Assembly (NCBI RefSeq): GCF_028532725.1
Contig: NZ_JAQKGU010000010.1
Span: forward strand, 62,001-126,000
Reading direction: 5' to 3'
DNA from: Desulfovibrio sp. Fe33
Lineage (GTDB): Bacteria > Desulfobacterota > Desulfovibrionia > Desulfovibrionales > Desulfovibrionaceae
DNA length: 64,000 bases
Positions within the stretch are counted from its first letter, which is position 1; each line of letters opens with the position of its first letter. The notes beneath the pieces were generated by a model. That model saw only the letters and a program-made list of their open reading frames with translations. It was not told the DNA's origin and ran no database searches. Position numbers and translations under genes: made by a program. Below are positions 10,265 to 30,518 of the stretch, piece by piece.

Positions 10265-10981
10265 CTAGTCCCAGGGCAGCGGGGCATTGTCGCGGTCGAT
10301 GATCTCGGCGAACCGGGTTATGCCCAGGGTTTCGAACACGGACCGGAAATTGCTGGACAATCCGGTCAGGTAGACACGTCCGCCCGAGCCTGCGTATTCC
10401 CGCAACAGCGAGGTCAGGCCGGTGATTCCCGCGCCGTTGATGGAGGCGTTTTTCTCGAAATCTATGAGCACCGCCTCCTTGCCCATGGCCGCAGCCTGTT
10501 CGAAGGCTTCGGTCAGCCTGGGCATGGTGATGGCCGAGACGTTTCCGCGCACCCCGATGACGGCCGACTTATCCTCCTGCTTGAGCACGACCTGCCCCTC
10601 TTCGTTGCGGGCGATGGTCATTCGTTCCCGGGCGCGGGTCAGGGCCTTCTCAAGGGATTCGCGCTTGAGCGGCTTGTTGATGAAATCCGTGGCGTCGAGG
10701 TTCAGGGCCTGGATGGCCAGGTCCATGTCGCCGTGGCCGGTGATGACGATGACCTCGGTGCCGGGGCTGATTTCCTTGATGGCGCGCAGGGCCTCGATGC
10801 CGTCCATGACGGGCATCTTGATGTCCGTCAGCACCAGCTCAGGCGTTTCCCTCTTGAAGGTCTCGACGCCCTCCCGGCCGTTTTCGGCGGTCAGTACCTC
10901 GTACCCGTAGGCGGAGAGCAAGAGGGAGAACATCTTCAGTGTGGGCCTTTCATCGTCTATGACAAGTACTTTGCTGCTCAT
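10265..10981 (-). CDS. Response regulator with REC and STAS domains
   Basis: Cytoplasmic output protein of a three-gene signalling operon, 238 residues. REC domain at about 1-120 has the acidic pair DDE, the phospho-acceptor in LVLTDIKMP and the lysine in NKPLKRE. A STAS domain (anti-sigma-factor antagonist type) fills about 135-235. The usual D-S-x-G phosphorylation segment of STAS reads NGAGITGL, without the serine, so partner switching by serine phosphorylation is unlikely. There is no DNA-binding domain. Its ATG overlaps the kinase stop by 4 bp. Confidence 0.85.
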   Translation of the reverse strand: MSSKVLVIDDERPTLKMFSLLLSAYGYEVLTAENGREGVETFKRETPELVLTDIKMPVMDGIEALRAIKEISPGTEVIVITGHGDMDLAIQALNLDATDFINKPLKRESLEKALTRARERMTIARNEEGQVVLKQEDKSAVIGVRGNVSAITMPRLTEAFEQAAAMGKEAVLIDFEKNASINGAGITGLTSLLREYAGSGGRVYLTGLSSNFRSVFETLGITRFAEIIDRDNAPLPWD

Positions 10982-12984
10982 GCCTTGGACTCTCCTCGGG
11001 TGCCGGCGGCAGGGAACTCCATACGGAAGACCGTGCCTTGTCCTTTGGTGCTGTTTATGCGGATTTCTCCGCCGTAATCCTTGATGATGCCGTAGGTGAT
11101 GGCCAGGCCCAGGCCCATGCCCTGCCCGGCCTCCTTGGTCGTGAAGAACGGCTCGAATATTCTTTGCTGGTCCTTTTCGTCGATGCCGCCGCCGGTGTCC
11201 TCCACCTCGGCGTAGACCCGCTGCGCCTCGTTGCCGGTGCGGATGATGATTCGCCTGTCGCCGCCTTCGCCGTTGGAAATGTCGTTGATGGCGTCGCGGG
11301 CGTTGGTCACCAGGTTGAAGATGACCTGTTGCAGCCGGTTGGAGTGCGCCTGCACGGGCCGAAGCCCTTCGTCCAGTTCCAGCTCGAAGCGGATGTTGTC
11401 CAGCTCGAACTGCCGCCGGATCATGGACAGGACCGCCCGGATCGGCTGGTTCAGATTCACGGACTCCTCCATGAGATCGGACTTGCGGCCGAAGGAGCGC
11501 AGGGTGTCGATGATTTCCGCGGCGCGGTCGACCTGCGCCGAGATTTCGTTGACCACTTCCTTGAAGTGCTCCTTGGGTATCTCCAGGTCCTCCTCCTGCA
11601 TCATGGACAGGAATTCGCTGCCGACCTTGATGGCGTTGAGGGGCTGGTTGATCTCATGGGCCATGCCCGCCGACATCTCGCCCAGGGACTTCATCTTGCC
11701 CGCCTGGATGAGCTGGGCGTCCTTCTCGATGAGTTCGGTGATGTCCGTGACCGCGATGATGATGGCCTGCTTGCCCCGGTAGGAGATGGGGCAGGCGTGC
11801 ATGTTCACGAAGAAGGGCTCGCCGCCGTTCTTGTAGTGCAGCCGCTTGGGATAGTAGACGCAGCCGCCGCCGATTTCGGCGAAGTAGTCCAGGCAGACGG
11901 TGTTGTGCTCCGGTCCCAGTTGCAGGAAGTCCAGGCCGATGAGCTCGTCCATGGGATAGCCATAGAGTTCGGTGGCTCGTGGGTTGGCGTCCCTGATGCG
12001 GCTTGTGGCGCAGTCCACCACGAAGATGGGGTCCGGCCCCGAGTCGAACAGCGAGCGGTATTTTTCCTCGGATTCGCGCAGGCGGCGCCGGTAGAGCTTG
12101 ATGGACCAGACCATGTTGCGGAAGGAGTCGCCGAGCTGGATGACCTCGTCGCCTTCATGCTTGCGGTAGAACGCGCAGTCCGCGCACTTGCGATGGGTCT
12201 CGGCCGGCGTCTGGCCGCTGCGGGACTGGTCGAAGTGCCAGCAGGGAAGGTCCGTATTGGAAAAGGCAGGGCATTCGGCCGAGTTCCAGTCCTCGCCCGA
12301 GCCGAGCTTGAGCGGGATGTCGAAGTTGCCTCGGCTGATCTCGTCCGACAGGCGGGTCAGGTCGGATACGGGTTTGGTGATCCGCTTGGAGAGCCAGCTC
12401 GACAGGATGATGGAAATGATGACCACGGCCGAGATGAAGCCGAGGAAGGCCACGCGCAGCTTGCCGACCAGGGTGTCGATGTGCCGCTTGTTCAGGCCGA
12501 CATGGACCGTCCCGATGCGGTACAATCCTTCGTGGATGGCCGCGGCCAGGTCGTAGACCTCCTGGTGCCCCAGCTCCATGAGCTTGATGGAGTCGTTCTT
12601 GCCGGGCGACAGGGTATTGGCGCGCAGGTTGTCGGGCAGGGGATGGGTCAGGGTATGGGCGAGGATGTTGCCCGCCTGATCCTCGATGAAAATGTATGTA
12701 ACCAGGTCCTTGCGCTGCCGCAGTCTGGCCTCGTCGAAAATGAGCGCCAGCAGTTTGGGAACGTCGTTGTCCAGGATGTACGAGCCGCCGCGTTCGGCCA
12801 CGGAGTGGGCGATGGCGAAGCCGCGCATTTCCAGTTCGTTGGTCAGGGAGGATACCAGGATGTAGCGAGAAATCAGGGCGATGGCCACGGAAATGAAGAG
12901 AACGGCCGCCAGCATGGAGATAAGCAGCTTCTCGCGCAGGCCGATGCGGGCGAGACGGGAAAATCGGCGTTCCCCGGCGGTCAT
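10978..12984 (-). CDS. PAS-domain sensor histidine kinase with cysteine-rich linker
   Basis: Membrane histidine kinase of 668 residues. A helix at about 21-45, a periplasmic sensor region and a second helix near 178-198 are followed by HAMP. Next comes a short four-cysteine segment (ECPAF, PCWHF, KCADC), then a PAS domain (about 315-420), HisKA with H box MAHEINQPL and an HATPase with VTNARDAI, DTGGGI and GMGLGLA. The cysteines may bind a metal or act as a redox sensor. It overlaps both neighbours by 4 bp (ATGA), so the three genes are translationally coupled. Confidence 0.88.
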   Translation of the reverse strand: MTAGERRFSRLARIGLREKLLISMLAAVLFISVAIALISRYILVSSLTNELEMRGFAIAHSVAERGGSYILDNDVPKLLALIFDEARLRQRKDLVTYIFIEDQAGNILAHTLTHPLPDNLRANTLSPGKNDSIKLMELGHQEVYDLAAAIHEGLYRIGTVHVGLNKRHIDTLVGKLRVAFLGFISAVVIISIILSSWLSKRITKPVSDLTRLSDEISRGNFDIPLKLGSGEDWNSAECPAFSNTDLPCWHFDQSRSGQTPAETHRKCADCAFYRKHEGDEVIQLGDSFRNMVWSIKLYRRRLRESEEKYRSLFDSGPDPIFVVDCATSRIRDANPRATELYGYPMDELIGLDFLQLGPEHNTVCLDYFAEIGGGCVYYPKRLHYKNGGEPFFVNMHACPISYRGKQAIIIAVTDITELIEKDAQLIQAGKMKSLGEMSAGMAHEINQPLNAIKVGSEFLSMMQEEDLEIPKEHFKEVVNEISAQVDRAAEIIDTLRSFGRKSDLMEESVNLNQPIRAVLSMIRRQFELDNIRFELELDEGLRPVQAHSNRLQQVIFNLVTNARDAINDISNGEGGDRRIIIRTGNEAQRVYAEVEDTGGGIDEKDQQRIFEPFFTTKEAGQGMGLGLAITYGIIKDYGGEIRINSTKGQGTVFRMEFPAAGTRGESKA

Positions 12985-14204
12985 CGCTGCGCCTCCATTC
13001 CTTTTTTGAACCCTGCCCAGTCAGTGAAGGGCAGGAACCGTCCGTCGCTCAGCTTGGTGAAGTGGATGGCGTCCAGTCCCTGGCGGTCATGCGGGCCGTA
13101 GGTGATGGTCAGTCCCGGGCCGAGCTTGAAATCCTTGATGGACTCGATGGCCTGGATGAACCCTTCGCGCGTCAGGTCGCGGCCTGCCCGGCGAAGACCT
13201 TCGACCAGGATTTCCGCGTTGAGAAAACCTTCGAGGCCCACGAAGCTCGGGGTGTCTTCCGGATAGTAGCGCTTGAGGAGCTTGACGTAGTTCCCCGCCG
13301 AGTCGGCCGGGTCGTCGGACTCCACGGGCGGCGGGACCACCTGGGACATGAATACGTGCGCCGGGGAGGCCCTGCCCACGCGCCAGGCGAGCTCTTCCGC
13401 GCCGACGAAGGAGACCGTGTAGAAGAGAGGGTTGTAGCCCTCTTCGACCGACAGGTTGATGAACCGGGCGCAGGCCCCGTATGTGCCGATCATGACCACG
13501 GCTTCGGCTTTGGATTTGCGAATGCGGTCCAGGCCGTCCTGGACGTCCAGGGTGCCCCGAATGTAGGAGCCGCGTGCAACGGGCTCCATGCCGAACTGCT
13601 TGAGCGCGAGTTCCGTGCCGATGAGGCCGTCGAATCCGTAGGCGTCGTACTGGTAGAAGACGGCGATCCTGGTCAGGCCGAGGTCCTTCACCATGTGCCG
13701 GACCGCGGCCATGGTTTCCTGGTAGTAGGAAGCCCGGATATTGATGACGTAGCGGCTGGGCGGCTGCCTGAGTGCGTTGGCGCCGGTGAACATGCCGATG
13801 AGCGGGATGCGCGCGTCCTCCACAAGAGGCAGGGCCTTGATGGTGGTGGGGGTGCCCACGTAGCAGAACAGGGCGAAGACCTGCTTGTCGACGATGAAGT
13901 GTTGGGTATTGGCCAGGCATTGGGGCGGATCGTAGGAATCATCCATGACCTCGACCACGATCTTGCGGCCGTGGACCCCGCCCCGTTCGTTGACGTAGCG
14001 GATATACGCCCGGGCTCCCTGAAGGGTCTGGGTGCCGAGGTATCCCGCGTGGCCCGACAGGGTCAGGGAGGAGCCGAGAACTATCTCGGTGTCGGACACC
14101 CCCGGCGTCCCGGCGTCCACCGCTGCGGTGTCCTCGGACGGATCGCACCCGGCAAGGGCGAGCGCGAGGAAGATGAGGATACAGATGAGGGTGGCGTTTC
14201 GCAC
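12981..14204 (-). CDS. Branched-chain amino acid-type binding lipoprotein
   Basis: Exported binding lipoprotein of the LivJ/LivK type (Peripla_BP_6), 407 residues. The signal sequence ends in the lipobox LALAGC with Cys at about 19. The domain opens with the family-typical TEIVLGSSLTLSGHAGYLG and runs the full two-lobe length. No livHMGF transport genes are near. Instead it is fused by a 4-bp overlap to a sensor kinase, so a ligand-sensing role for the kinase is inferred; the ligand is unknown. A 12-bp inverted repeat lies 54 bp upstream. Confidence 0.87.
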   Translation of the reverse strand: MRNATLICILIFLALALAGCDPSEDTAAVDAGTPGVSDTEIVLGSSLTLSGHAGYLGTQTLQGARAYIRYVNERGGVHGRKIVVEVMDDSYDPPQCLANTQHFIVDKQVFALFCYVGTPTTIKALPLVEDARIPLIGMFTGANALRQPPSRYVINIRASYYQETMAAVRHMVKDLGLTRIAVFYQYDAYGFDGLIGTELALKQFGMEPVARGSYIRGTLDVQDGLDRIRKSKAEAVVMIGTYGACARFINLSVEEGYNPLFYTVSFVGAEELAWRVGRASPAHVFMSQVVPPPVESDDPADSAGNYVKLLKRYYPEDTPSFVGLEGFLNAEILVEGLRRAGRDLTREGFIQAIESIKDFKLGPGLTITYGPHDRQGLDAIHFTKLSDGRFLPFTDWAGFKKGMEAQR

Positions 14205-14257
14205 GGTTCGGCTCCATGTTCTGGTGGCGGCACAACGTCGCTATTTCCCGTTATCTT

Positions 14258-14298
14258 TTCGTGGGGAAAAACACAAGAAACACCCATTTCCCCACGAA
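14258..14298. promoter_or_regulatory. 12-bp inverted repeat upstream of the binding-protein/kinase operon
   Basis: Perfect arms TTCGTGGGGAAA (14258-14269) and TTTCCCCACGAA (14287-14298) with a 17-base spacer. No T run follows on the minus strand, so an operator or leader hairpin is more likely than a terminator. Confidence 0.45.
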
Positions 14299-14329
14299 GC
14301 AACATCGTCCGTTGCCCCGATATGCGGGG

Positions 14330-14362
14330 AAAAAGACCCCGGCAGCGCGGGCTGCCGGGGTC
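14330..14362 (-). terminator. Rho-independent terminator of the fdhAB operon
   Basis: Perfect 12-bp stem (14335-14346 and 14351-14362, loop of 4) followed by TTTTT on the minus strand, 128 bp past the fdhB stop. Confidence 0.88.
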
Positions 14363-14490
14363 ACGAAAAACTCCGCTTGCCCCAAGCCTTGCGGCCGGAC
14401 GGTGTGGCTTACGGAGGTGTTCCCGCATGATGCGTGCGAGTGGGAAATCCCCGGCGCGGGGGGAGGGACCCGCGCCGGGGGAGTGGTTCG

Positions 14491-15216
14491 TTATGAGGTC
14501 ATGCGCTTGACCGGGCGGCCCAGTTTCGCCAGGAACTGCTTCCTGGACAGGGGGCCGCGGCGAACGCCGGAGGCGTCCGCGGACAGGGACTCGTAGTAGC
14601 TGTCCGGATCGGTCTGCACCAGGTAGATCACCCGCACGTATTCCGCGTCCACCAGCTCCGCGTCGGGATATTTCCCGGCGACGGCGGCCAGCCGCTCCTC
14701 GGCCAGAGCCAGCATCTCGTCCCGGTCGCCGAAGTTCATGGCGCCGGTGGGGCAGGTCTGGACGCAGGCGGGCAGCATACCCGCCTTGACGCGGTCCACG
14801 CACATGTCGCACTTGACCACCTGGCCGGTTTCCTCGTTGACGCGGGGAATGTTGTACGGACAGGCCATGGAGAAGGCGTCCTTGTCGGGTTCCTGGGCGG
14901 TCAGCTCGGTGTAGACGACGGCGCCGGTCTCCTGGTCATGGATGATGGAACCGGGAATGGTCATGGCATCCAGGCAGGGCGGCTCGACGCAATGGCGGCA
15001 CTGTTCCGGGAAGAACAGCCACTGCATTCCGTCGGCGGTCTCCACTTCCTCGAAGCGGACCAGTTTGAGGGTCGTGCCGGACAGGTCCTTGGGGTTCTGA
15101 TGGGAGCCCCAGTTCTCGGTCTGTTCGGCGGGCAGTTTTTTCCATTGCTTGCAGGCAACCTGGCAACCACGGCAGGCCGTACACTTGGTCAGGTCGACGA
15201 AGAATGTTTTACTCAT
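14491..15216 (-). CDS. fdhB: Formate dehydrogenase beta subunit, four-cluster ferredoxin protein
   Basis: Electron-transfer subunit of periplasmic formate dehydrogenase, 241 residues. It has four groups of cysteines for [4Fe-4S] clusters: CTACRGCQVAC near 12-22, CRHCVEPPC, ACPYNIP and KCDMCVDRVKAG leading to CVQTCP. There is no signal peptide, as expected for export piggy-backed on the Tat-carrying alpha subunit. There is no C-terminal membrane helix, so the enzyme should be soluble. It starts 12 bp after fdhA with a GGAGG site and is followed by a terminator. Confidence 0.93.
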   Translation of the reverse strand: MSKTFFVDLTKCTACRGCQVACKQWKKLPAEQTENWGSHQNPKDLSGTTLKLVRFEEVETADGMQWLFFPEQCRHCVEPPCLDAMTIPGSIIHDQETGAVVYTELTAQEPDKDAFSMACPYNIPRVNEETGQVVKCDMCVDRVKAGMLPACVQTCPTGAMNFGDRDEMLALAEERLAAVAGKYPDAELVDAEYVRVIYLVQTDPDSYYESLSADASGVRRGPLSRKQFLAKLGRPVKRMTS

Positions 15217-15228
15217 GTCATTCCTCCT

Positions 15229-18200
15229 TTACGCCTTGCGGACGTTGACCATGAAGGCCTTGGTTTCGGGGATGCCCGTGTTCGGGTCGCCTACGGACGG
15301 GGTCAGCAGGTTGGCGGAGTCGCCGCCATCCTTGGGCCAGGTCCAGCCGAAGTGCCAGGGCAGGCCCACCTGGTGGACGATGGTGCCCTGGACCATGAAC
15401 GGCTTGAGTCGGCTGGTGACGATCGCCTTGGCCCAGATGGAGCCGCGCAGGGAATCGACCGTGACCTTCTCGCCGTTCTTGATGCCGCGGAGTTCCGCCA
15501 GTTCGGGGCTCATCTCCACGAAGACCTGCGGCTCGGCCTCGACCAGCCAGGGCTGGTTGCGGGTCATGACGCCGGTCTGCCAGTGCTCGGTGACACGATA
15601 GGTGGTGCCGATCAGGGGATACCTGGGATCGCACACGGCCTTTTCCTCGGTGTCGAAGGTGAGCGCCGTGGGGTTGTGCAGGGTGCTGGAGAACGGATGC
15701 GACTTCACCGGACATTCAAGCGGCTCGTAGTATTCCGGGAACGGACCGTCGGCCCGGCCGGGACCGAAGAGCTGTCCGAAGCCGTGCTTGCGCATGATGA
15801 AGGCGTACTTGGAGCCGGGGGCCCAGCCGCCGTCGGGCACGTCGCCCACCCACTTCTCGCCGTTCCAGGCGATGACCGCCTTTTCCGGGTTCCAGGGCTT
15901 GCCGTTGAGGTCGACCGAGGCGCGGTTGTACAGCACGCGGCGGTTGACGGGCCAGCACCAGGAGAAGTTCGGGTACAGGCCGATGTTGGCTTGTTCCGGA
16001 GTCTGGGTCAGGTCGCGCCGGGCGGCCATGTTGCCCTTGTCCGTGTAGGAGTGGCAGTACAGCCAGTTGCCCGAGCAGGTGGAGCCGTCGGCCTGCAGGA
16101 AGGCGAAGCTGGGAACCTGTTCGCCCTTCTTGTAGATCTTGCCCTTGATGTCCACGTCACGGGTGAAGTGGCCGTTTATCAGTTTGGCCGTCTTGTGGGG
16201 GTCGAATACGCCCTTGGTGGCGATGGCGTCCCAGGTCAGACGGGTGATGGGCGCGGGGTAGACGCCGCCTTCCTTCTCGTACAGGTGACGGATTTCCGCC
16301 ATCAGCTCGTACATGAGGTCGCCGTCCGGCTTCAGGCCGTTGGGGGCGTCCGGTCCCTTGTAGCGCCACTGCATCCAGCGGCCGGAGTTGGTGATGGAGC
16401 CTTCCTTTTCGATGGACACGGCGCAGGGCAGGAAGAAGACCTCGGTCTTGACCTTGGTCGGGTCCATGCCCGGTCCTTCCCAGAACCAGCCTGTCTCGTT
16501 GGGGAAGATGTTCACGTTGACCAGCCAGTCGAGGTTGCCCATGGCGCGCCGGTTCTTTTCGGCGTTCGCGCCGGAGCAGGCAGGGTTCATGCCCCATGCG
16601 AGCAGGCCCTTGAACTGGCCTTTCTCCATCTTGTCGAACAGGGTCAGCCAGGAATATTCCATGGCCGAGCCGGAATCGAGCCTGGGCAGGAACTGGTAGG
16701 CGTCCTCGGGGGTGTCGTCCTGCCACATGGCCTTGAGGAGCGACGCCGAGTATTTGGGGAAGTTGCCCCACCAGTTGGCGGACTTGGGATCGTTGGAAAC
16801 CGGGGTGTTCGCCTTGTTGTACACTTCCAGGGTGGGCTGGGACGCCTTGGGGGTGCTCAGGTAGCCCGGAAGGATGTGGTACAGCAGACAGTGGTCCGTG
16901 GACCCCTGGACGTTGGACTCGCCGCGCAGGGCGTTGACGCCGCCGCCGGCTATGCCGATGTTGCCCAGCAGGAGCTGGATCATGGCCATGGCGCGGATGT
17001 TCTGCACGCCCACGGTATGCTGGGTCCAGCCCATGGCGTACATGATGGTTCCGGCCTGGTCGGCCTTGCCTGTGGCCGCGTAGGTCTCGTACAGCTTGAC
17101 CAGGTTTTCCTTCTTCATGCCCGAGATGGAGACGACCTTGTCGAGATCGTAGCGCGCGTAGTGCTTCTTCAGGAGCTGGTACACGCAGTTGGGATCGGCG
17201 AGGGTCGGGTCCTTCTTCGGATTGCCTTCCGCGTCCATGGCGAAAGCCCAGGAGGACTTGTCATAGGAACGGGTGGACTTGTCGTAGCCCGAGAACATGC
17301 CGTCCTCGAACTTGTACTTGTCGCCGACGATGAAGGAGGCGTTCGTATAGTTGACCACGTAATCCCGGAAGATCAGGTCGTTGTCCAGGATGTACTTGAT
17401 CATGCCGCCAAGCACGGCGATATCCGCGCCGGAGCGGATGCCCGCGTAGAAGTCGGCCTTGGCCGAGGTCCTGGTGAAGCGGGGGTCGACGTGGATCAGG
17501 GTCGCGCCCTTTTCCTGCGCCTTGGTCACCCATTTGAAGGAAATGGGATGGTTTTCGGCAGCGTTGCTGCCCATGATGAGAATACAGGTGGAGTTCTGGA
17601 TGTCGATCCAGTGGTTGGTCATCGCGCCGCGTCCGAACGACTCTGCCAGAGCCGCAACAGTCGCGCTGTGTCAGATACGCGCCTGGTGTTCCACATACAC
17701 CAGGCCAAGGCTGCGGAGCATCGTCTGGTAAGCCCAGCACTCCTCGTTATCCAGTGCGGCGGAGCCCACGGAGGCTATGCCGTCGCAGCGGTTGACCACC
17801 TGGCCCTTGGCGTTTTTCTCGGTCCAGGTCTTGTCGCGGGAATCCTTGATCCTTTTGGCGATGGTTTCCAGCGCCCAGGACAGGGAGACCTTCTTGAATT
17901 CCTTGGCGTAGGGAGCCCTGTAGAGGACGGAGTCGGGGCGGCGGTCGTTCTCGGCCAATTGCCAGATGGACGCGCCCTTGGCGCACAGGGCGCCTTCGTT
18001 GATCGGATGGTCGGGGTCGCCCTCGACGTTGATGGCCCGCATGTCCTTGAGGGACGTGTTCACGACCAGGCCGCAACCCACTGCGCAGTAGCAGCAAACG
18101 GACGTGGTCTGTTTGCTCCATTTCGGATTCATGGCCGACACATGGTCAGGCAGCGTCGCCGCCGTGGCCTTGCAGCCGAATCCGAGCCCGCCGAACGCCG

Positions 18201-18255
18201 TGGCCGTGGCCGCGACTGCGGAGAGCTTCAGAAAGTTTCTACGATTGGTGTGCAT
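15229..18255 (-). CDS. fdhA: Formate dehydrogenase alpha subunit, selenocysteine-containing
   Basis: Catalytic subunit oxidising formate to CO2 with a Mo or W bis-pyranopterin cofactor. The reading frame continues through an in-frame UGA at 17671-17673, giving 1008 residues with selenocysteine at position 195 in the context EHQARI-Sec-HSATVAAL, the expected place in FdnG-type enzymes. A Tat signal (RRNFLK near residues 5-10) shows export to the periplasm. The N-terminal [4Fe-4S] site is CCYCAVGC near 54-61 plus CAKG. ATG at 18255 follows GGAGG. A SECIS-like hairpin follows the UGA. Read as two separate genes it would be misannotated as broken. Confidence 0.95.
17638..17663 (-). promoter_or_regulatory. 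SECIS-like hairpin downstream of the selenocysteine UGA
   Basis: Starting 11 nt into the RNA counted from the U of UGA, CGACU pairs with AGUCG. An inner stem (UUGC with GCAG, containing one G-U pair) closes a loop GGCUCUG, with a bulged G. Position and a GG-U-type apical loop fit bacterial SECIS elements. Confidence 0.65.
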
Positions 18256-18279
18256 TCTACCTCCTGTGTTGAATGCGGG

Positions 18280-18510
18280 TCAGCGCCCGCGGATCTCGCG
18301 GCCGAGCGCCACGAGCAGCTTGTACCCCCCGGGTTGGGCGGCGTGACCGTAGTCGGCCGGGATGAACACGGGGTCGCCGCAGATGCGGTGAACCACCGGG
18401 GTCATGCTTTTGGCCGCCTGACGGACCTCGGCTGAGACGAATCCCAGCCCGGCGAAGGGCAGGGCGGTTGCCGCGGTCGAAGCCTGTGGGTGTTGATTGA
18501 TCAAGCGCAT
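18280..18510 (-). CDS. Small protein at the head of the fdhAB operon
   Basis: Predicted protein of 76 residues with no recognised family. The ATG at 18510 (MRLINQHP) has GGGAGAGG about 7 bp upstream, better than any alternative start. The N-terminal part is weakly hydrophobic (about 10-27) and the rest is basic with one Cys; there is no clear membrane helix. The stop is 24 bp before fdhA, and both share the palindrome at 18652-18671, so it is probably co-transcribed with fdhAB. Coding is supported by position and ribosome site, not by homology. Confidence 0.5.
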   Translation of the reverse strand: MRLINQHPQASTAATALPFAGLGFVSAEVRQAAKSMTPVVHRICGDPVFIPADYGHAAQPGGYKLLVALGREIRGR

Positions 18511-18651
18511 ACGCGTACCTCTCCCATCTTTTCTATTATTCCTCTTATGATCCATAGATGGGGAGCGGGCAAAGAAAGCCGTCTTGCGGTGGGTCTTACA
18601 CAGGGAAAAATGTGCTCTATTTAACAGGATGACGCCATTCCTGGGTCCGCT

Positions 18652-18671
18652 TTATGTCGGATTTGACATAA
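18652..18671. promoter_or_regulatory. Crp/Fnr-like palindrome upstream of the fdhAB operon
   Basis: Perfect 7-bp arms TTATGTC and GACATAA with a 6-base spacer, 142 bp before the start of the first gene. Nearly the same 20-mer occurs upstream of fdhE at 20772-20791. Arm length and N6 spacing fit Crp/Fnr-family operators. Confidence 0.6.
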
Positions 18672-18737
18672 GTTGATTTCCGCCCCACGGTTTGACACCA
18701 GGCGGGATGCCTTCGCCGAAAGGCTGCGGAGGATGCG

Positions 18738-18774
18738 AAAAAGCCCGGTTCCCATGGCGTGGAATCGGGCTTTT
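18738..18774 (-). terminator. Rho-independent terminator after the ISXO2-like gene
   Basis: 14-bp stem (18739-18752 and 18761-18774, one G-U pair) with A and T runs at its outer ends, so it can act on both strands. It lies 30 bp beyond the stop at 18804 and separates the fdhE unit from the fdhAB unit. Confidence 0.85.
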
Positions 18775-18803
18775 CACTATCATGGCGGGGTGTTTCGGAC
18801 GAG

Positions 18804-19730
18804 TTAGTCCGTGTTCGGCACCAGTGCGCAGAGGTAGGAGGCCAGTATCTCGCACAGCGGGTTGTTTCGATTGTTGAAACGGAACTCCAGCTCCTTCATG
18901 TACAGGGGGAACCGCTGGCAGGAGATGCCCCGGAATTTCTTGATGCGCGACTGGGCGTACTCCCAGAATTCGTCGTGGACCGCGTCGATGTGCGGCGGCT
19001 CGTCGTAGCGGCGGATGATCTCGTAGGGCAGGGAGTCGTTGCCGCAGAACATGAGGGCGTCGTATTCCTTGTAGCGGTCTGTGTAGACCAGGTTGCCCGA
19101 ACGGATGAGCTTCAGGTGGAAGTTCATGTGGAAGTGGAACAGGGTCTCGGCCTGGAAGCCGGGCACCAGGTCGATGAAGACCAGGCCGTCGCGGCGCAGG
19201 ATGCCGTAGACCGGGATGGTGTCCATGTGCATTTCGCGCGGGCCGCCGGTCAGCCTGTTGCCCTTGAGATAGGAGTCCAGGCCCGTGGCCGGGCTGATGA
19301 GCTGCCGGGCGTCCAGGGCGTTGGCCAGGATGGCGAAGCGGATGGCGGTCAGGGCTTTGTAGACCGTGTTGTAGGACAGCCCCAGCTCCTCCTTCATCTG
19401 GTGGACCGAGCGTTCCTCGACGAACTGCACGATGAGGCGCAGCCACTCGCTCGGGCTCAGGGCCCCGTTGTTGAGCCACCGGCCGGAGAAGGGCTGGAAG
19501 GTGTACTTGCAGGCCGCGCAGCGCAACCGCTCGCCGGACAGCGTGTAGACCTTGCGATGCCCGCAGCGCGGACAGAAAGGGTCGCCGGTGGGCCAGGCCA
19601 GGTCCAGCAGGTAGTCCCTGGCCTTGTCCTCGTCGTGCAGCAGCGTCTCGAAGGCCGCGCCGTCATCCGTCGAGATGGTCGGCACGATGTGCGAAGTCTT
19701 CAGCATGGCGTCCCGCTGTGAACCGGGCAT
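18804..19730 (-). CDS. ISXO2/IS1595-like transposase-family protein in the fdhE operon
   Basis: Protein of 308 residues related to IS1595-family (ISXO2-like) transposases. An N-terminal zinc ribbon (CPRCGHRK near 53-60 and CAACKYTF near 72-79) and a helix-turn-helix-like region (about 95-135) precede a DDE-type domain. In that domain GLDSYLKG, VYTDRYKEY and HDEFWEY hold the likely acidic residues. It starts 15 bp after the fdhE stop with GGAGGG, leaving no room for a terminal inverted repeat, and it ends at a terminator. This suggests a domesticated gene co-expressed with fdhE, perhaps a regulator. A recent decayed insertion remains possible. Confidence 0.8.
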   Translation of the reverse strand: MPGSQRDAMLKTSHIVPTISTDDGAAFETLLHDEDKARDYLLDLAWPTGDPFCPRCGHRKVYTLSGERLRCAACKYTFQPFSGRWLNNGALSPSEWLRLIVQFVEERSVHQMKEELGLSYNTVYKALTAIRFAILANALDARQLISPATGLDSYLKGNRLTGGPREMHMDTIPVYGILRRDGLVFIDLVPGFQAETLFHFHMNFHLKLIRSGNLVYTDRYKEYDALMFCGNDSLPYEIIRRYDEPPHIDAVHDEFWEYAQSRIKKFRGISCQRFPLYMKELEFRFNNRNNPLCEILASYLCALVPNTD

Positions 19731-19745
19731 GGCACCCTCCGGATG

Positions 19746-20633
19746 TTAGAACCCCCAGGCGGACAGTGTGGCCCGCCGATATCCCTGGTTGGCGGCGACG
19801 TAGTCGAGGGCCAGGGAATCCAGGTCGTCCAGGACCGGGAGCGCGACGCGGTCCAGGTTCCGGAAATCGATGGTCTTGACGTATGTCTTGCATGTCTCGC
19901 AGACGTCTACCCGGAACCCGGGCTCTTCGTCCACGGTGAAGAAGGTCAGCTTCTTGTGGTCGTCCTCGCCGCAGACCGGGCAGGCGATGCGCTTGATCCG
20001 GTAGTGATGGCGGCAGAACGAGCAGGTGGCGTGCCGGAAGCCCTCTTTTTGCTCCAGGGAGGAGATGAGCGGCATGGCTCCGCACACGGGGCAGGTGCCG
20101 ACCGGCGAAATCTTCATGTCGGGGAGCTTTGCGGCGAGCATTCCGGCGGCGGCCTCCATGGACGGTCCCATGGCGGCCTGCACCAGGAACGGCAACGTCC
20201 TGGGAGCGCCCGGCATCCGTTCGGCCCATTTGCCGAAGAAGGCTGTGTCGTCGTCCAGAAAACGCCGGAACAGCTCGGCCGGGGTGAGTTCACCGGACTC
20301 CAGGGCCTTGGCCGCGATTCCTGCGCCGTCGCCCAGGGGGCCGTCGATCTTGCTGACAATGCGGATCAGCTCGCCGAGCAGCCGTTCGGCCTGGGCCGCG
20401 TCAAAAGGAAAATTCTCGCGGTTGACCAGGGAGACGCCCTGAAGCACGGCTTCGGGCGCGGCGAGTTGCTCATCGGGCGGCAACCGCACTTCCGCTTCGG
20501 GCAGGGCGGCCAACTGTAGGTGCGACACTTCGTCGAGCAGGTCGATAAGCTCTGACGATATATAGGATTTCTTTCTAAGCTGCGCCAGCTTGCGATCCAG
20601 TCTGCGCGTCTCTTGGGCCATGTTGCGTTCCAT
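19746..20633 (-). CDS. fdhE: Formate dehydrogenase accessory protein FdhE
   Basis: Maturation factor for formate dehydrogenase, cytoplasmic, 295 residues. The C-terminal half has the FdhE pattern of paired CxxC motifs: CPVCGAMP, CSFC, CPVCGED and CETCKTYVKT. These bind iron or zinc in the family. The ATG at 20633 has GGAG 6 bp upstream. The stop is 15 bp before the ISXO2-like gene. An AT-rich promoter region with a Crp/Fnr-like palindrome lies upstream. The gene is within 1.5 kb of the fdhAB operon it serves. Confidence 0.92.
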   Translation of the reverse strand: MERNMAQETRRLDRKLAQLRKKSYISSELIDLLDEVSHLQLAALPEAEVRLPPDEQLAAPEAVLQGVSLVNRENFPFDAAQAERLLGELIRIVSKIDGPLGDGAGIAAKALESGELTPAELFRRFLDDDTAFFGKWAERMPGAPRTLPFLVQAAMGPSMEAAAGMLAAKLPDMKISPVGTCPVCGAMPLISSLEQKEGFRHATCSFCRHHYRIKRIACPVCGEDDHKKLTFFTVDEEPGFRVDVCETCKTYVKTIDFRNLDRVALPVLDDLDSLALDYVAANQGYRRATLSAWGF

Positions 20634-20745
20634 GTGGTTCTCCAGAGTGTTTTCCGATCTGGGAAAACAGTATTGAGGTGGATGTCATCATGCCAAAGGT
20701 TTTGCACTTCCTCAAGGTTTTACACTAATGCATGGTATCATATTG

Positions 20746-20761
20746 TAATAATATATTATTA
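20746..20761. promoter_or_regulatory. 16-bp AT palindrome in the fdhE promoter region
   Basis: TAATAATA-TATTATTA is a perfect 16-bp palindrome lying 10 bp from the Crp/Fnr-like site on its fdhE side. It may overlap the -10 region. Confidence 0.4.
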
Positions 20762-20771
20762 ATGTATGCAA

Positions 20772-20791
20772 TTGTGTCTAAATTGACATAA
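20772..20791. promoter_or_regulatory. Crp/Fnr-like palindrome upstream of fdhE
   Basis: TTGTGTC-N6-GACATAA, one mismatch from the perfect site upstream of fdhAB, and at almost the same distance from the start codon (139 bp against 142 bp). A possible -35 (TTGCAT, 20766-20771) abuts it on the fdhE side. Confidence 0.6.
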
Positions 20792-20941
20792 TATGAATAG
20801 GATGGATCAATAAAGCTGGTTAGTTACAGAGACGAAAAAAATCTGAGATGCTCGTCGGGAAGAGGCTTCCGCGCGCATGTAATCGGCGCGGGCGGCTTCC
20901 CTTTGCGGGTGGTGACGCGCGGGCGGGACTTTCGGATACGG

Positions 20942-20972
20942 GGCCCTTTGGCGGCGAGGCCGCCAAAGGGCC
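20942..20972 (-). terminator. Strong hairpin after the small membrane protein gene
   Basis: Perfect 14-bp GC-rich stem (20942-20955 and 20959-20972, loop of 3), 20 bp past the stop at 20993. No T run follows on either strand, so it may stabilise an mRNA end rather than terminate by itself. Confidence 0.55.
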
Positions 20973-20992
20973 TTCATGGGTGTCGTTGTCGG

Positions 20993-21157
20993 TTATGATT
21001 CACAGAGCACGATCGGCAAGATGAAGATCGCTGCGCCGGCAGCGAAGATCAGCCCGATCAGGAGCAGCTTCCTGAGTGAGTATTCCTTGGGTGAATAATC
21101 GATTTCAGGTTTCTGCGAAGACGAATTTTCCATGTCGGGAAACTTGGGATCAACCAT
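20993..21157 (-). CDS. Small single-helix membrane protein
   Basis: Predicted 54-residue protein with a polar N-terminal half (VDPKFPDMENSSSQ) and one clear membrane helix at about 33-52 (LLLIGLIFAAGAAIFILPIV). The ATG at 21157 is chosen because GGAGG lies upstream, though 12 bases away, which is long. No family recognised. It lies between fdhD and fdhE and is followed by a strong hairpin. A role in formate metabolism is possible only by position. Confidence 0.5.
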   Translation of the reverse strand: MVDPKFPDMENSSSQKPEIDYSPKEYSLRKLLLIGLIFAAGAAIFILPIVLCES

Positions 21158-21236
21158 AGGGTAAGAGAACCTCCGTTGTTCCAACGAGTGGCAATTTCGC
21201 CTGGGACGGCGAGGGTCCCGGCGGCATTGGTCGAAT

Positions 21237-21581
21237 CTATGACGCGACGGGGAAGAACGGAGGCGCCCGGGTCGCGATCGACCTGTGCGCGCAATGGAGG
21301 GCTGGGCGGCTTGCTGTGGCCCCGGACAGGAACGCGGCCGCCCTGACGAAGTCGGCGGCCAGCCTGTCGGGACTTAAGGCGAGCACATGCCCCTGTTCAA
21401 GAAATTCGGGACTCGTGCGATGGAGGGGCTCGACGCCGCATGTCGTCGCTCCGGCATGACCGGGCGCGGAAAGGATAAAGCCGGTGTCGCGGCTCAACTC
21501 CTGCCCGTCGTCGAGGAAACGTCCGCCGTCCGTCTGCGCCAGGCACAAGGCCAGCAGCAGGAAGACGATCAGTCGTGACAT
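21237..21581 (-). CDS. Possible exported protein, unknown
   Basis: Open frame of 114 residues from an ATG at 21581. It begins with a short basic stretch and a hydrophobic core (LIVFLLLALCLA), a plausible signal peptide, but the remainder matches no family and there is no good ribosome site. Its amino acid make-up (many Ala, Arg, Ser) is what a random GC-rich frame also gives. It lies in the 595-bp space between fdhD and the small membrane protein. Listed because of the signal-like start; it may be non-coding. Confidence 0.25.
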   Translation of the reverse strand: MSRLIVFLLLALCLAQTDGGRFLDDGQELSRDTGFILSAPGHAGATTCGVEPLHRTSPEFLEQGHVLALSPDRLAADFVRAAAFLSGATASRPALHCAHRSIATRAPPFFPVAS

Positions 21582-21752
21582 ATGGCGGATTTTGATCGGC
21601 AACGGTCCGGCTCGCATTCGGTTTTCAGCTTGTCGCGCGGGACGGGCGCATCCGTCTTCAGCGGGTGCGCGAGGCGCTACCCGTCAGCGCTATCATGAGT
21701 ACGAACTTCCTGCAAAGGGATATTTCGGCGTACCGGGCGCGGGGGCCGGTGG

Positions 21753-22538
21753 TCAAAAGCCGATGATTCTCCCGTTGTCGTTGTAGACCCAGAAGCTGTC
21801 GTCGCGGATGTTCCCGATGAGGGTGATGCCGGTTTTCCTGGCCAGCTCGACGGAGAAGCTGGTGGCCACGGCCGTTGACGCCAGGACCGGGACGCCGATG
21901 CGGACCACTTTGAGCAGGATTTCCGAAGCCACCCGGCCCGTGGTCACGATCATCTTGTCGTCCACGGCCACGTCGTCCAGGAAGCATTGGCCGCACAGCA
22001 TGTCGATGGCGTTGTGGCGTCCTATGTCCTCGCGGAAGAGCAGGATTTCCTCAGGGGTGCAGAGGGAGGAGTTGTGGCAGCCGCGCGTGGTTTTGTACAG
22101 CGTGGACCGTTCGTGCAGCTCTTTCGCCAGAGTGAGAATCTGTTCCGGGCTGACGCGCACGTCGCCGCCCACGGTGCGTTTGGAGATGGTCGCCACATTG
22201 CGTCCGAAGTTCGTGCCTTTGCCGCAGCCTGAGGTGATGGACCGCTCCATGACCCGGTCCTTCCACGGATCGTGGCAGGTCTCCACCTCGGCCGTCAGCC
22301 GGTCGCCCTCGTCGCGGATGGTCAGGTCCGTGATCTGGGCCGGGCTGGAGATGAAGGCGTCGGACTTGAGAAAGCCCACCGCAAGGTATTCTGGATACTT
22401 GGCCGTGCACAGCAGCGTGACCACCTCGCGTCCGTTGAGGAAGATGGTCAACGGCACTTCCCGGATGGAACTGACGGTCTTGCGGGAGAAGCCCCGCCGG
22501 TATTCATGTATAACGTATTCTTGGCTATCCGAACTCAT
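21753..22538 (-). CDS. fdhD: Formate dehydrogenase sulfurtransferase FdhD
   Basis: Transfers sulfur to the Mo/W cofactor before its insertion into FdhA; cytoplasmic. The 261-residue product has the FdhD core: REVPLTIFLNG at the start, the reactive segment TSGCGKG, and the conserved FREDIGRHNAIDM and TTGRVASEI blocks. The usual CxxC loop here has a single cysteine (CGKG), leaving only the first, which is the catalytically important one in the E. coli protein. ATG at 22538 follows GGAGGCGGAT. Same strand as the other fdh genes but apparently a separate unit. Confidence 0.93.
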   Translation of the reverse strand: MSSDSQEYVIHEYRRGFSRKTVSSIREVPLTIFLNGREVVTLLCTAKYPEYLAVGFLKSDAFISSPAQITDLTIRDEGDRLTAEVETCHDPWKDRVMERSITSGCGKGTNFGRNVATISKRTVGGDVRVSPEQILTLAKELHERSTLYKTTRGCHNSSLCTPEEILLFREDIGRHNAIDMLCGQCFLDDVAVDDKMIVTTGRVASEILLKVVRIGVPVLASTAVATSFSVELARKTGITLIGNIRDDSFWVYNDNGRIIGF

Positions 22539-22652
22539 ATCCGCCTCCGTGCGTAGCGCGGCTTCCCTTCCAGGCATCTCTTAATCCGGACGGGGCGTGC
22601 GGGCAAGTCGGCGGATTTTGCCCTGATTCTCACACTCCGGCGGGGTCAGAGC

Positions 22653-22666
22653 GTGTTCGGGAACAC
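22653..22666. repeat. 14-bp palindrome between fliD and fdhD
   Basis: GTGTTC-GG-GAACAC, perfect 6-bp arms, 44 bp past the fliD stop. No T run; either a weak terminator or an operator. Confidence 0.3.
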
Positions 22667-22709
22667 TACGGGGCGCGGCGCCACGGACATTGACGATGAA
22701 ACGAGCGGC

Positions 22710-29937: not shown

Positions 29938-30518
29938 GAGGCTTTCCTCCTTTCGGAAAGGCGCGGCTCGCCGGCTTCGGCCAGGGGAGCGGATGCGCCG
30001 TAATGGATGCGGAGCCTGTTCAGGGCCTGGGATTTGATGCTGCGGACGGTGCGCGAGGTGATGCCGAGCTTCCGGGCGATTTCGCAGGCGATCAGCCCTT
30101 CCTTGAAAAAAAGGGTGAGGACTTCCGCCTGCCGGTCGGTCAGCACGCCCGCGGGCAGGCTGAACAGGGAGGTGTCGAGTCCGCCTTCCGGGTTGCGCAA
30201 AGGCTCGTCGGTGAGCACGGATTCCATCCAGCGGAGCTTCTTTCTGTAGTAGTCGATGACCGTGGTGCGGCAGATGATGTTGAGCCAGGTGATGAAGGAA
30301 CTCTTCTCGACGTTGTAGCGTGAAATGTAGTCGTTCTTGAATATTTTCAGCGCTATTTCCTGGTAGACATCATCTATTTCAGATCCATGCAGATTTATGT
30401 TTCTGGATTTTACGAAGTTGATGATGAGCTTGTAGATGAGCCTGGAATGTTCCTTGAACAGGCTTTCATATGATATTTCATCATATCGCTTTTCAATTTC
30501 CATTATTGTGCTGCTCAT
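29934..30518 (-). CDS. ECF-like sigma-70 family factor in the flagellar operon
   Basis: Sigma factor of 194 residues containing region 2 (about 20-90, with DDVYQEIALKIF and the WLNIICRTTVIDYYR -10 recognition helix) and region 4 (about 130-180, LTDRQAEVLTLFF and SRTVRSIKSQALNRLR). Region 3 is missing, so it is not FliA. ATG at 30518 follows AGGAGG. It heads the flgD-fliD operon behind a sigma-54-type promoter. The 5' half is visibly more AT-rich than its neighbours. Likely role: timing of late flagellar genes or a linked envelope response; targets unknown. Confidence 0.85.
   Translation of the reverse strand: MSSTIMEIEKRYDEISYESLFKEHSRLIYKLIINFVKSRNINLHGSEIDDVYQEIALKIFKNDYISRYNVEKSSFITWLNIICRTTVIDYYRKKLRWMESVLTDEPLRNPEGGLDTSLFSLPAGVLTDRQAEVLTLFFKEGLIACEIARKLGITSRTVRSIKSQALNRLRIHYGASAPLAEAGEPRLSERRKAS

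Follow-up and report, generated by a model that had tools for sequence, protein, structure and literature searches.

A conserved palindrome upstream of the formate dehydrogenase and fdhE units of Desulfovibrio, a probable operator of single-domain ModE-like proteins

What ties the maturation factor FdhE to its enzyme, the formate dehydrogenase FdhAB, is the question raised by a locus of Desulfovibrio sp. Fe33, contained in a stretch of 64,000 nucleotides (hereafter, the window; contig NZ_JAQKGU010000010.1, positions 62,001 to 126,000). Sulfate reducers switch their formate dehydrogenase isoenzymes with the supply of molybdenum and tungsten, and the literature found names no regulator of this metal-dependent switching. 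As reported in the initial annotation of this DNA, the fdhA and fdhE units are each preceded by a copy of the palindrome TTATGTC-N6-GACATAA, exact at 18652–18671 (TTATGTCGGATTTGACATAA) and with one mismatch at 20772–20791 (TTGTGTCTAAATTGACATAA). We consider this palindrome to be most likely the operator of ModE-like proteins that consist of the helix-turn-helix (HTH) domain only.

The distances of 142 and 139 bp assigned to the two copies are right, when measured to the start codons at 18510 and 20633 (fdhE). The former start, taken in the initial annotation as the first of the fdhAB unit, belongs to a 76-amino-acid open reading frame (ORF), fdhA itself starting at 18255. The third and last match in the window is found at 30353 with 3 mismatches, and shuffled windows contained on average 0.65 matches with up to 3 mismatches, three matches being reached in 3 of 100 shuffles. 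The genome-wide scan (3.46 Mb) that the annotation had suggested gave 3 places with up to one mismatch (the two window sites and C16:38383); when two mismatches were allowed, the number rose to 9, while the reversed control gave 2. The site at C16:38383, third best in the genome, is followed after ~35 bp by the likely start of an aldehyde dehydrogenase gene, and the palindrome precedes this gene at 8 distinct loci. The two window copies are not parts of a larger repeat, an outcome that the annotation had named as refuting; their common stretch is 25 nt at 76% identity. A repeat element or insertion sequence termini were rejected on this basis, there being no extended repeat and each copy being kept at its own place in the relatives, and a riboswitch was rejected as positions 13800–22700 of the window have no Rfam match at the gathering threshold.

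The conservation of the palindrome was surveyed in 60 genomes including that of strain Fe33 (36 of the genus and 24 others). The exact pattern TTRTGTC-N6-GACATAA occurs in 25 of the 60 (23 of the genus and 2 others), and its reversed control in a single genome. With one mismatch allowed, TTRTGTC-N6-GACAYAA occurs in 33 of the 36 genus genomes, at 104 places, as compared with 14 for the control (in G019, two of the 104 are one sequence occurring at both of two contig ends), which bears out the view in the initial annotation that chance is unlikely. The position is also fixed. Among the genus loci surveyed (all but one of the 31 strong fdhE loci, together with the 30 top-ranking fdhA loci, of which one had only 341 bp of upstream sequence), a site scoring at least 11 of 14 is present before fdhE in 27 of 30, at 120–154 bp from the start, and before fdhA in 27 of 30, at 389–408 bp from the start, as compared with 44 and 32 of 3000 shuffled upstream regions, respectively. 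The genus genomes are related, and the 30 loci do not amount to 30 independent tests; likewise, two loci obtained by scanning further contigs with the FdhE protein are the same records as those of G026 and G017. In the relatives, the arms (TTATGYC/GRCATAA) are nearly invariant and the AT-rich spacer and the fdhE flanks are variable; at the fdhA site, the conservation extends to the 5′ flank. The variable spacer argues against mere descent as the cause of the conservation. Thus, the shared site, conserved genus-wide, gives good support to the initial proposal of a common regulator linking the maturation factor FdhE to the enzyme FdhAB, a proposal from which only the assignment to the Crp/Fnr type falls away, as described below.

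The genes downstream of the palindrome were surveyed for 75 listed sites of the 104 counted, with a limit of 800 bp upstream of the gene. Fifty-four of the 75 belong to a small gene set: fdhA (19 sites), a MoeA-like gene followed by a molybdenum aldehyde oxidoreductase gene (11), the gene of a ModE-like protein (ModE-A) with the second fdh operon (8), an FmdE-like gene (6), aldehyde dehydrogenase (6), fdhE (2), AFOR (1), and an unnamed gene beside AFOR (1). A further site precedes tupA in G055. Sites are thus found where those of a ModE-type operator would be expected, before the genes of molybdenum/tungsten transport (tup) or molybdenum/tungsten enzymes, with the exception of the 6 of the 54 that precede aldehyde dehydrogenase, an enzyme without a known molybdenum or tungsten cofactor. 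The reference genes FmdE, MoeA-like, and aldehyde dehydrogenase were picked after the sites had been seen, which weakens the argument and makes the fraction of 54 in 75 descriptive; the independent point is the molybdenum/tungsten theme common to the fdh, aldehyde oxidoreductase, FmdE, MoeA-like, and tupA genes. In three relatives (L296, L306, and L313 from G012, G017, and G027, respectively), fdhA paralogues with a frame of more than 1000 amino acids and no TGA have the palindrome ~708–730 bp upstream.

ModE family searches gave matches in all 36 genus genomes. The genome of strain Fe33 encodes two such proteins, ModE-A (on C3, before the second fdhA) and ModE-B (on C11, before tupABC), with 129 and 128 amino acids, respectively. 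Both match the ModE DNA-binding domain model TIGR00637, below its cut-off, and the best match of ModE-A in the PDB is E. coli ModE (1b9m; E-value, 2.2e-08), followed by 1o7l and 2ijl. The N-terminal LysR-type winged HTH (Pfam HTH_1) of full-length ModE is the only Pfam domain in either protein, the C-terminal TOBE/Mop part being missing; both are therefore classed as single-domain ModE-like proteins and not as full ModE. Their genes keep the same neighbours: in 29 of 32 genus loci, ModE-A is immediately followed by the second fdhA, and in 31 of 32, ModE-B by a tupA-like gene (TupA of strain Fe33 scores 349 bits, with a cut-off of 400 bits). A site of at least 11 of 14 is present in front of ModE-B in 28 of 32 loci and directly in front of ModE-A in 14 of 32; in several of the ModE-A loci without a direct site, the palindrome is found instead before the FmdE gene just upstream. 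The locus survey behind these counts, and behind those outside the genus given below, used 89 matches (those of G021 C4 and G052 C2 were left out). Among 88 distinct ModE-like genes from the order (95 matches minus duplicate proteins), 44 have a site of at least 11 between 600 bp upstream and 60 bp inside the gene. Random stretches of the window reached a score of 11 in 15 of 2000 cases, and of 13–14 in 40 of 2000, the latter as expected from its two real sites. Outside the genus, such a site is present at only 3 of 25 ModE-like loci; in 5 of the 25, the ModE-like gene is divergent from fdhE, which is a second sign of the link. In strain Fe33, weaker sites (2 to 4 mismatches) are located before ModE-A and the second fdh operon (C3:307169), ModE-B and tupABC (C11:29441), AFOR (C11:32486), and the MoeA-like gene (C7:91371 and 91292).

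The palindrome was compared with known operators by alignment on the dyad. With the ModE consensus NTATATA-N6-TATATAN, as given in PMC545781, the inner arms of the consensus palindrome and of the first window site share 8 of 12 positions at equal spacing. The sites thus share the TAT-N12-ATA arms, and the distance of these from the dyad, with the ModE operators of E. coli and Geobacter, but differ in the inner triplet (GYC, not ATA) and in lacking the outer ATCG/CGAT arms. Similarly, the targets resemble those of the ModE regulon in these bacteria (transport of molybdenum and tungsten, and enzymes containing them, under a regulator with a LysR-type winged HTH), whereas here the regulators are two paralogues without TOBE, and the targets include fdhA, fdhE, tupABC, and aldehyde oxidoreductases. 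Against the Crp/HcpR consensus TTGTGA-N6-TCACAA, the arms agree at 2 of 12 positions, against the CooA site at 0 of 10, and against the FNR consensus TTGAT-N4-ATCAA at 2 of 8. HcpR and CooA, members of the Crp/Fnr family in Desulfovibrio, also have palindromic operators but differ in these arms and in their targets.

Several observations weigh against assigning the palindrome to the ModE-like proteins. The second window site agrees with the ModE inner arms at only 7 of 12 positions, and the outer arms are absent, 1 of their 8 positions agreeing at the first site and 0 of 8 at the second. The palindrome would therefore be a variant that functions as ModE operators do without being of the E. coli type. 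Its likeness to ModE sites counts as support but does not decide the matter, and the argument rests on the gene neighbourhood. All ModE-like matches fall below the TIGR00637 cut-off, in every genome. No gene of the above set is near 21 of the 75 listed sites, some of them at contig ends, and 18 of the 32 ModE-A genes are without a site directly in front. Sites and ModE genes also part company in some genomes: G008, G013, and G023 possess ModE but gave no site in the genus pattern search, while sites persist in G030 (perfect ones), where ModE-A alone was found, and in G004 and G022, where ModE-B alone was found. As the 20-mer is rare outside the genus (the 2 genomes in 24 mentioned above) in spite of ModE-like genes there, a drift of the operator has to be assumed. 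Finally, a relaxed search of the strain Fe33 genome gave 11 and 9 places against 8 and 10 for the control, so that the weaker local sites on C3, C7, and C11 rest on the same genes having sites in the relatives.

The binder favored in the initial annotation, a regulator of the Crp/Fnr family coupling fdh to the redox or formate state, would suit a palindromic 20-mer with an N6 centre, and the genome has six HTH_Crp matches, five of them over the cut-off. Yet none of the six is within 40 kb of the nine palindrome places with up to two mismatches, the arms are unlike the CRP-like HcpR consensus of Desulfovibrio, as shown by the alignment above, and the target set is that of molybdenum and tungsten metabolism. 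With arms that do not fit and no such gene near the nine places, Crp/Fnr, HcpR, CooA, and FNR were rejected as binders, and we regard a regulator of this family as very unlikely. One poor match from the relaxed search (C4:232612) is ~7.7 kb from an HTH_Crp gene. TunR, with a Xer-like DNA-binding domain and two TOBE domains, would offer a direct response to tungstate or molybdate. A TunR-like protein is encoded in this genome (L121), and locus L128 of G029 has a palindrome ~460 bp beyond the end of a TunR-like gene. Against this, G011, a genome with 100% completeness, has no TOBE match and keeps 4 palindrome sites, which led us to reject TunR, and in Desulfovibrio with an integrase–Mop fusion in the mod cluster, the mod operons are preceded by another repeat of 30 bp (CGGTCACG-N14-CGTGACCG), which we take to be the TunR site. 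TunR thus appears very unlikely as the binder. The role of the TunR family was reportedly described by Kazakov et al. in 2013. The TunR-like gene of strain Fe33 (L121 646–1707; G000:C4), the only TOBE gene found in the genome, encodes a tyrosine-recombinase-type domain and two TOBE domains.

It is also conceivable, though unlikely, that another molybdenum/tungsten regulator (such as one of the TaoR family, with an HTH and a PBP-like domain) or a further factor binds the palindrome, and that the ModE genes are passengers in molybdenum/tungsten operons. The absence of the ModE outer arms would be consistent with this, and since ModE-A sits in an fdh cluster, a site before ModE-A is also a site before fdh. 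Furthermore, a tungsten aldehyde oxidoreductase is under the control of TaoR, and the uptake of tungstate under that of TupR (PMC11980592 and PMC10102598). However, the only strong PF12727 match of this genome is a MoeA–PBP fusion, and TaoR was accordingly rejected, there being no strong member here; among the 36 genus genomes, strong matches in frames of 375 amino acids are found in 2, with a fragmented one in G008 and weak matches of ~300 amino acids also present. Moreover, no candidate other than ModE was found next to sites of both classes (those of the second fdh operon and tup). TunR and TaoR/TupR of sulfate reducers share with the proposed system the molybdenum/tungsten theme and part of the targets (tup and aor), but have DNA-binding domains that differ from that of ModE.

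Single-domain ModE itself has a precedent. The survey by Rodionov et al. 2004 (PMC545781) describes proteins of the same kind, consisting of the ModE DNA-binding domain alone, in related sulfate reducers of the genus Desulfovibrio, and calls their sensing mechanism unclear; it reports no E. coli-type ModE site in Desulfovibrio and proposes the 30-bp repeat before the mod operons instead. The system proposed here departs from that account in its operator and in having a wider regulon. In the literature within reach, to which the subscription papers on TunR (2013) and TaoR (2019) and RegPrecise do not belong, no operator for a single-domain ModE is recognised. If the assignment is correct, the palindrome is the operator of the single-domain ModE of Desulfovibrio, missed in 2004 with the E. 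coli profile. It supplies a concrete operator, two candidate regulators, and a list of targets, with which the questions of the regulator and of sensing can be tested together, and raises the question of how a ModE without the molybdate-binding domain senses the metal.

On the conservation of the palindrome, its fixed position, the molybdenum/tungsten gene set, and the adjoining ModE genes, we infer that the ModE-like proteins physically bind it. A ModE dimer would sit on the two TTATGYC arms, which have the spacing of the ModE inner arms. A sigma-70-like promoter is predicted before fdhE, and a weaker one, TTGCCC-N17-CATAAG, may be placed before fdhA from the alignment, at a similar distance from the operator, although it does not appear in the promoter scan listing; no GG-N10-GC pair of the sigma-54 type was seen near the operators in the alignments, checked by eye only. 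With its centre ~120 bp upstream of the start site given by the predicted fdhE promoter, the operator would be in a position for activation and not for occlusion, and activation may be assumed at both fdhA and fdhE, where it lies roughly 120 bp upstream of the predicted promoters. Repression is probable at aldehyde dehydrogenase, where the likely start codon follows the site by ~35 bp, and where the site is close to tupA. As the aldehyde dehydrogenase site would suit repression, the same protein could favor the metal enzymes and switch off the metal-free one; the C16:38383 site possibly marks such a swap between metal-free and metal-dependent aldehyde oxidation. In this manner, one metal-linked signal, for which tungstate, molybdate, a cofactor intermediate, and formate are candidates, would govern the enzyme, the maturation factor, and metal uptake together.

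The alignments revealed a second block common to the fdhA and fdhE promoters, GTGYMAAACCKTKRG, whose pattern was written from the copies in the window. Without mismatch it occurs at exactly 3 places in this genome (one in the fdhA and two in the fdhE promoter), and with one mismatch at one further place; the reversed control, with one mismatch allowed, gave 4 and 6 places, so that the genome count itself is not above background. At a score of at least 13 of 15, the element is present in 30 of 30 fdhE promoters and 19 of 30 fdhA promoters, against none of 1000 random window regions. Around distinct palindromes, the same score is reached at 4 of 7 FmdE, 2 of 9 ModE-A, 0 of 12 MoeA-like, and 0 of 8 aldehyde dehydrogenase sites; occurring at the fdhE and fdhA promoters but not at the MoeA-like or aldehyde dehydrogenase sites, the element is tied to formate dehydrogenase, and from its place near the −35 box may help activation at fdhA and fdhE.

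What binds this element, beside a conserved transposase-like gene, is a further question raised by the locus. In all 31 genus genomes that possess this fdhE, a single strong copy of the IS1595-transposase-like gene follows it directly. The orthologs are 70–100% identical over the matched part, while the IS1595 elements present in many copies in G004 and G011 share only ~28% identity with the gene, which looks domesticated. Four genomes without this fdhE have 6 transposase-like genes between them; 4 of these carry the element within 300 bp upstream, and the remaining two, both in G020, do not. Five other-family loci with fdhE have no transposase-like gene in the stretch covered, and only one (L171) reaches 13 of 15 for the element. 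From the distribution of the element and the constant place of the gene after fdhE, the transposase-like protein is a candidate binder of low probability. The corresponding two-signal scheme, with ModE lacking a sensor domain at the palindrome for the metal and an exapted IS1595-family transposase as a formate dehydrogenase-specific factor at GTGYMAAACCKTKRG, is rather doubtful and offered tentatively.

Table 1. Positions of the regulatory elements and genes of the fdh locus within the window
Feature	Position	Strand	Basis
Palindrome, proposed single-domain ModE operator, upstream of the fdhA unit	18652..18671	.	Pattern search; site in genus loci
Palindrome, proposed operator, upstream of the fdhE unit	20772..20791	.	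Pattern search; site in genus loci
Second shared element GTGTCAAACCGTGGG, adjoining the fdhA palindrome on its upstream side	18684..18698	-	Alignment, pattern search
Second shared element, copy 1 GTGTAAAACCTTGAG, fdhE promoter	20711..20725	-	Alignment, pattern search
Second shared element, copy 2 GTGCAAAACCTTTGG, fdhE promoter; spaced 18 bp from copy 1 and overlapping with the −35 box of the predicted promoter	20693..20707	-	Alignment, pattern search
Predicted sigma-70-like fdhE promoter, TTGGCA-N16-AATACT	20669..20696	-	9 of 12 consensus positions; TTGGCA conserved in alignment
fdhE, formate dehydrogenase accessory protein	19746..20633	-	Pfam FdhE_central/FdhE_C; NCBIfam FdhE below cut-off
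IS1595-transposase-like gene, conserved right after fdhE	18804..19730	-	Ortholog next to fdhE in the genus
Probable fdhE-unit terminator, an inverted repeat whose ends are A/T-rich	18739..18774	.	Repeat search (I4); absent from terminator scan listing
Conserved 76-amino-acid ORF between palindrome and fdhA	18280..18510	-	Alignment; no Pfam family
fdhA, in-frame TGA (presumed selenocysteine codon) at 17671–17673	15229..18255	-	TIGR01553; single in-frame TGA before stop
fdhB, 4Fe-4S subunit	14491..15216	-	Fer4_11
fdhD/NarQ family gene, upstream of the fdhE unit	21753..22577	-	Profile match

The remaining features of the locus are listed in Table 1. The start of the 76-amino-acid ORF is preceded by a conserved GGGAGAGG. 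Directly downstream of fdhAB, the region 10265–14204 of the window encodes a sensor histidine kinase, a response regulator with a STAS domain, and a periplasmic binding protein. Elsewhere in the genome, a palindrome-like sequence at C2:256114 (TTATGCTTTAAACGGCATAA) is located 15 bp before an ORF of 256 amino acids without a Pfam family.

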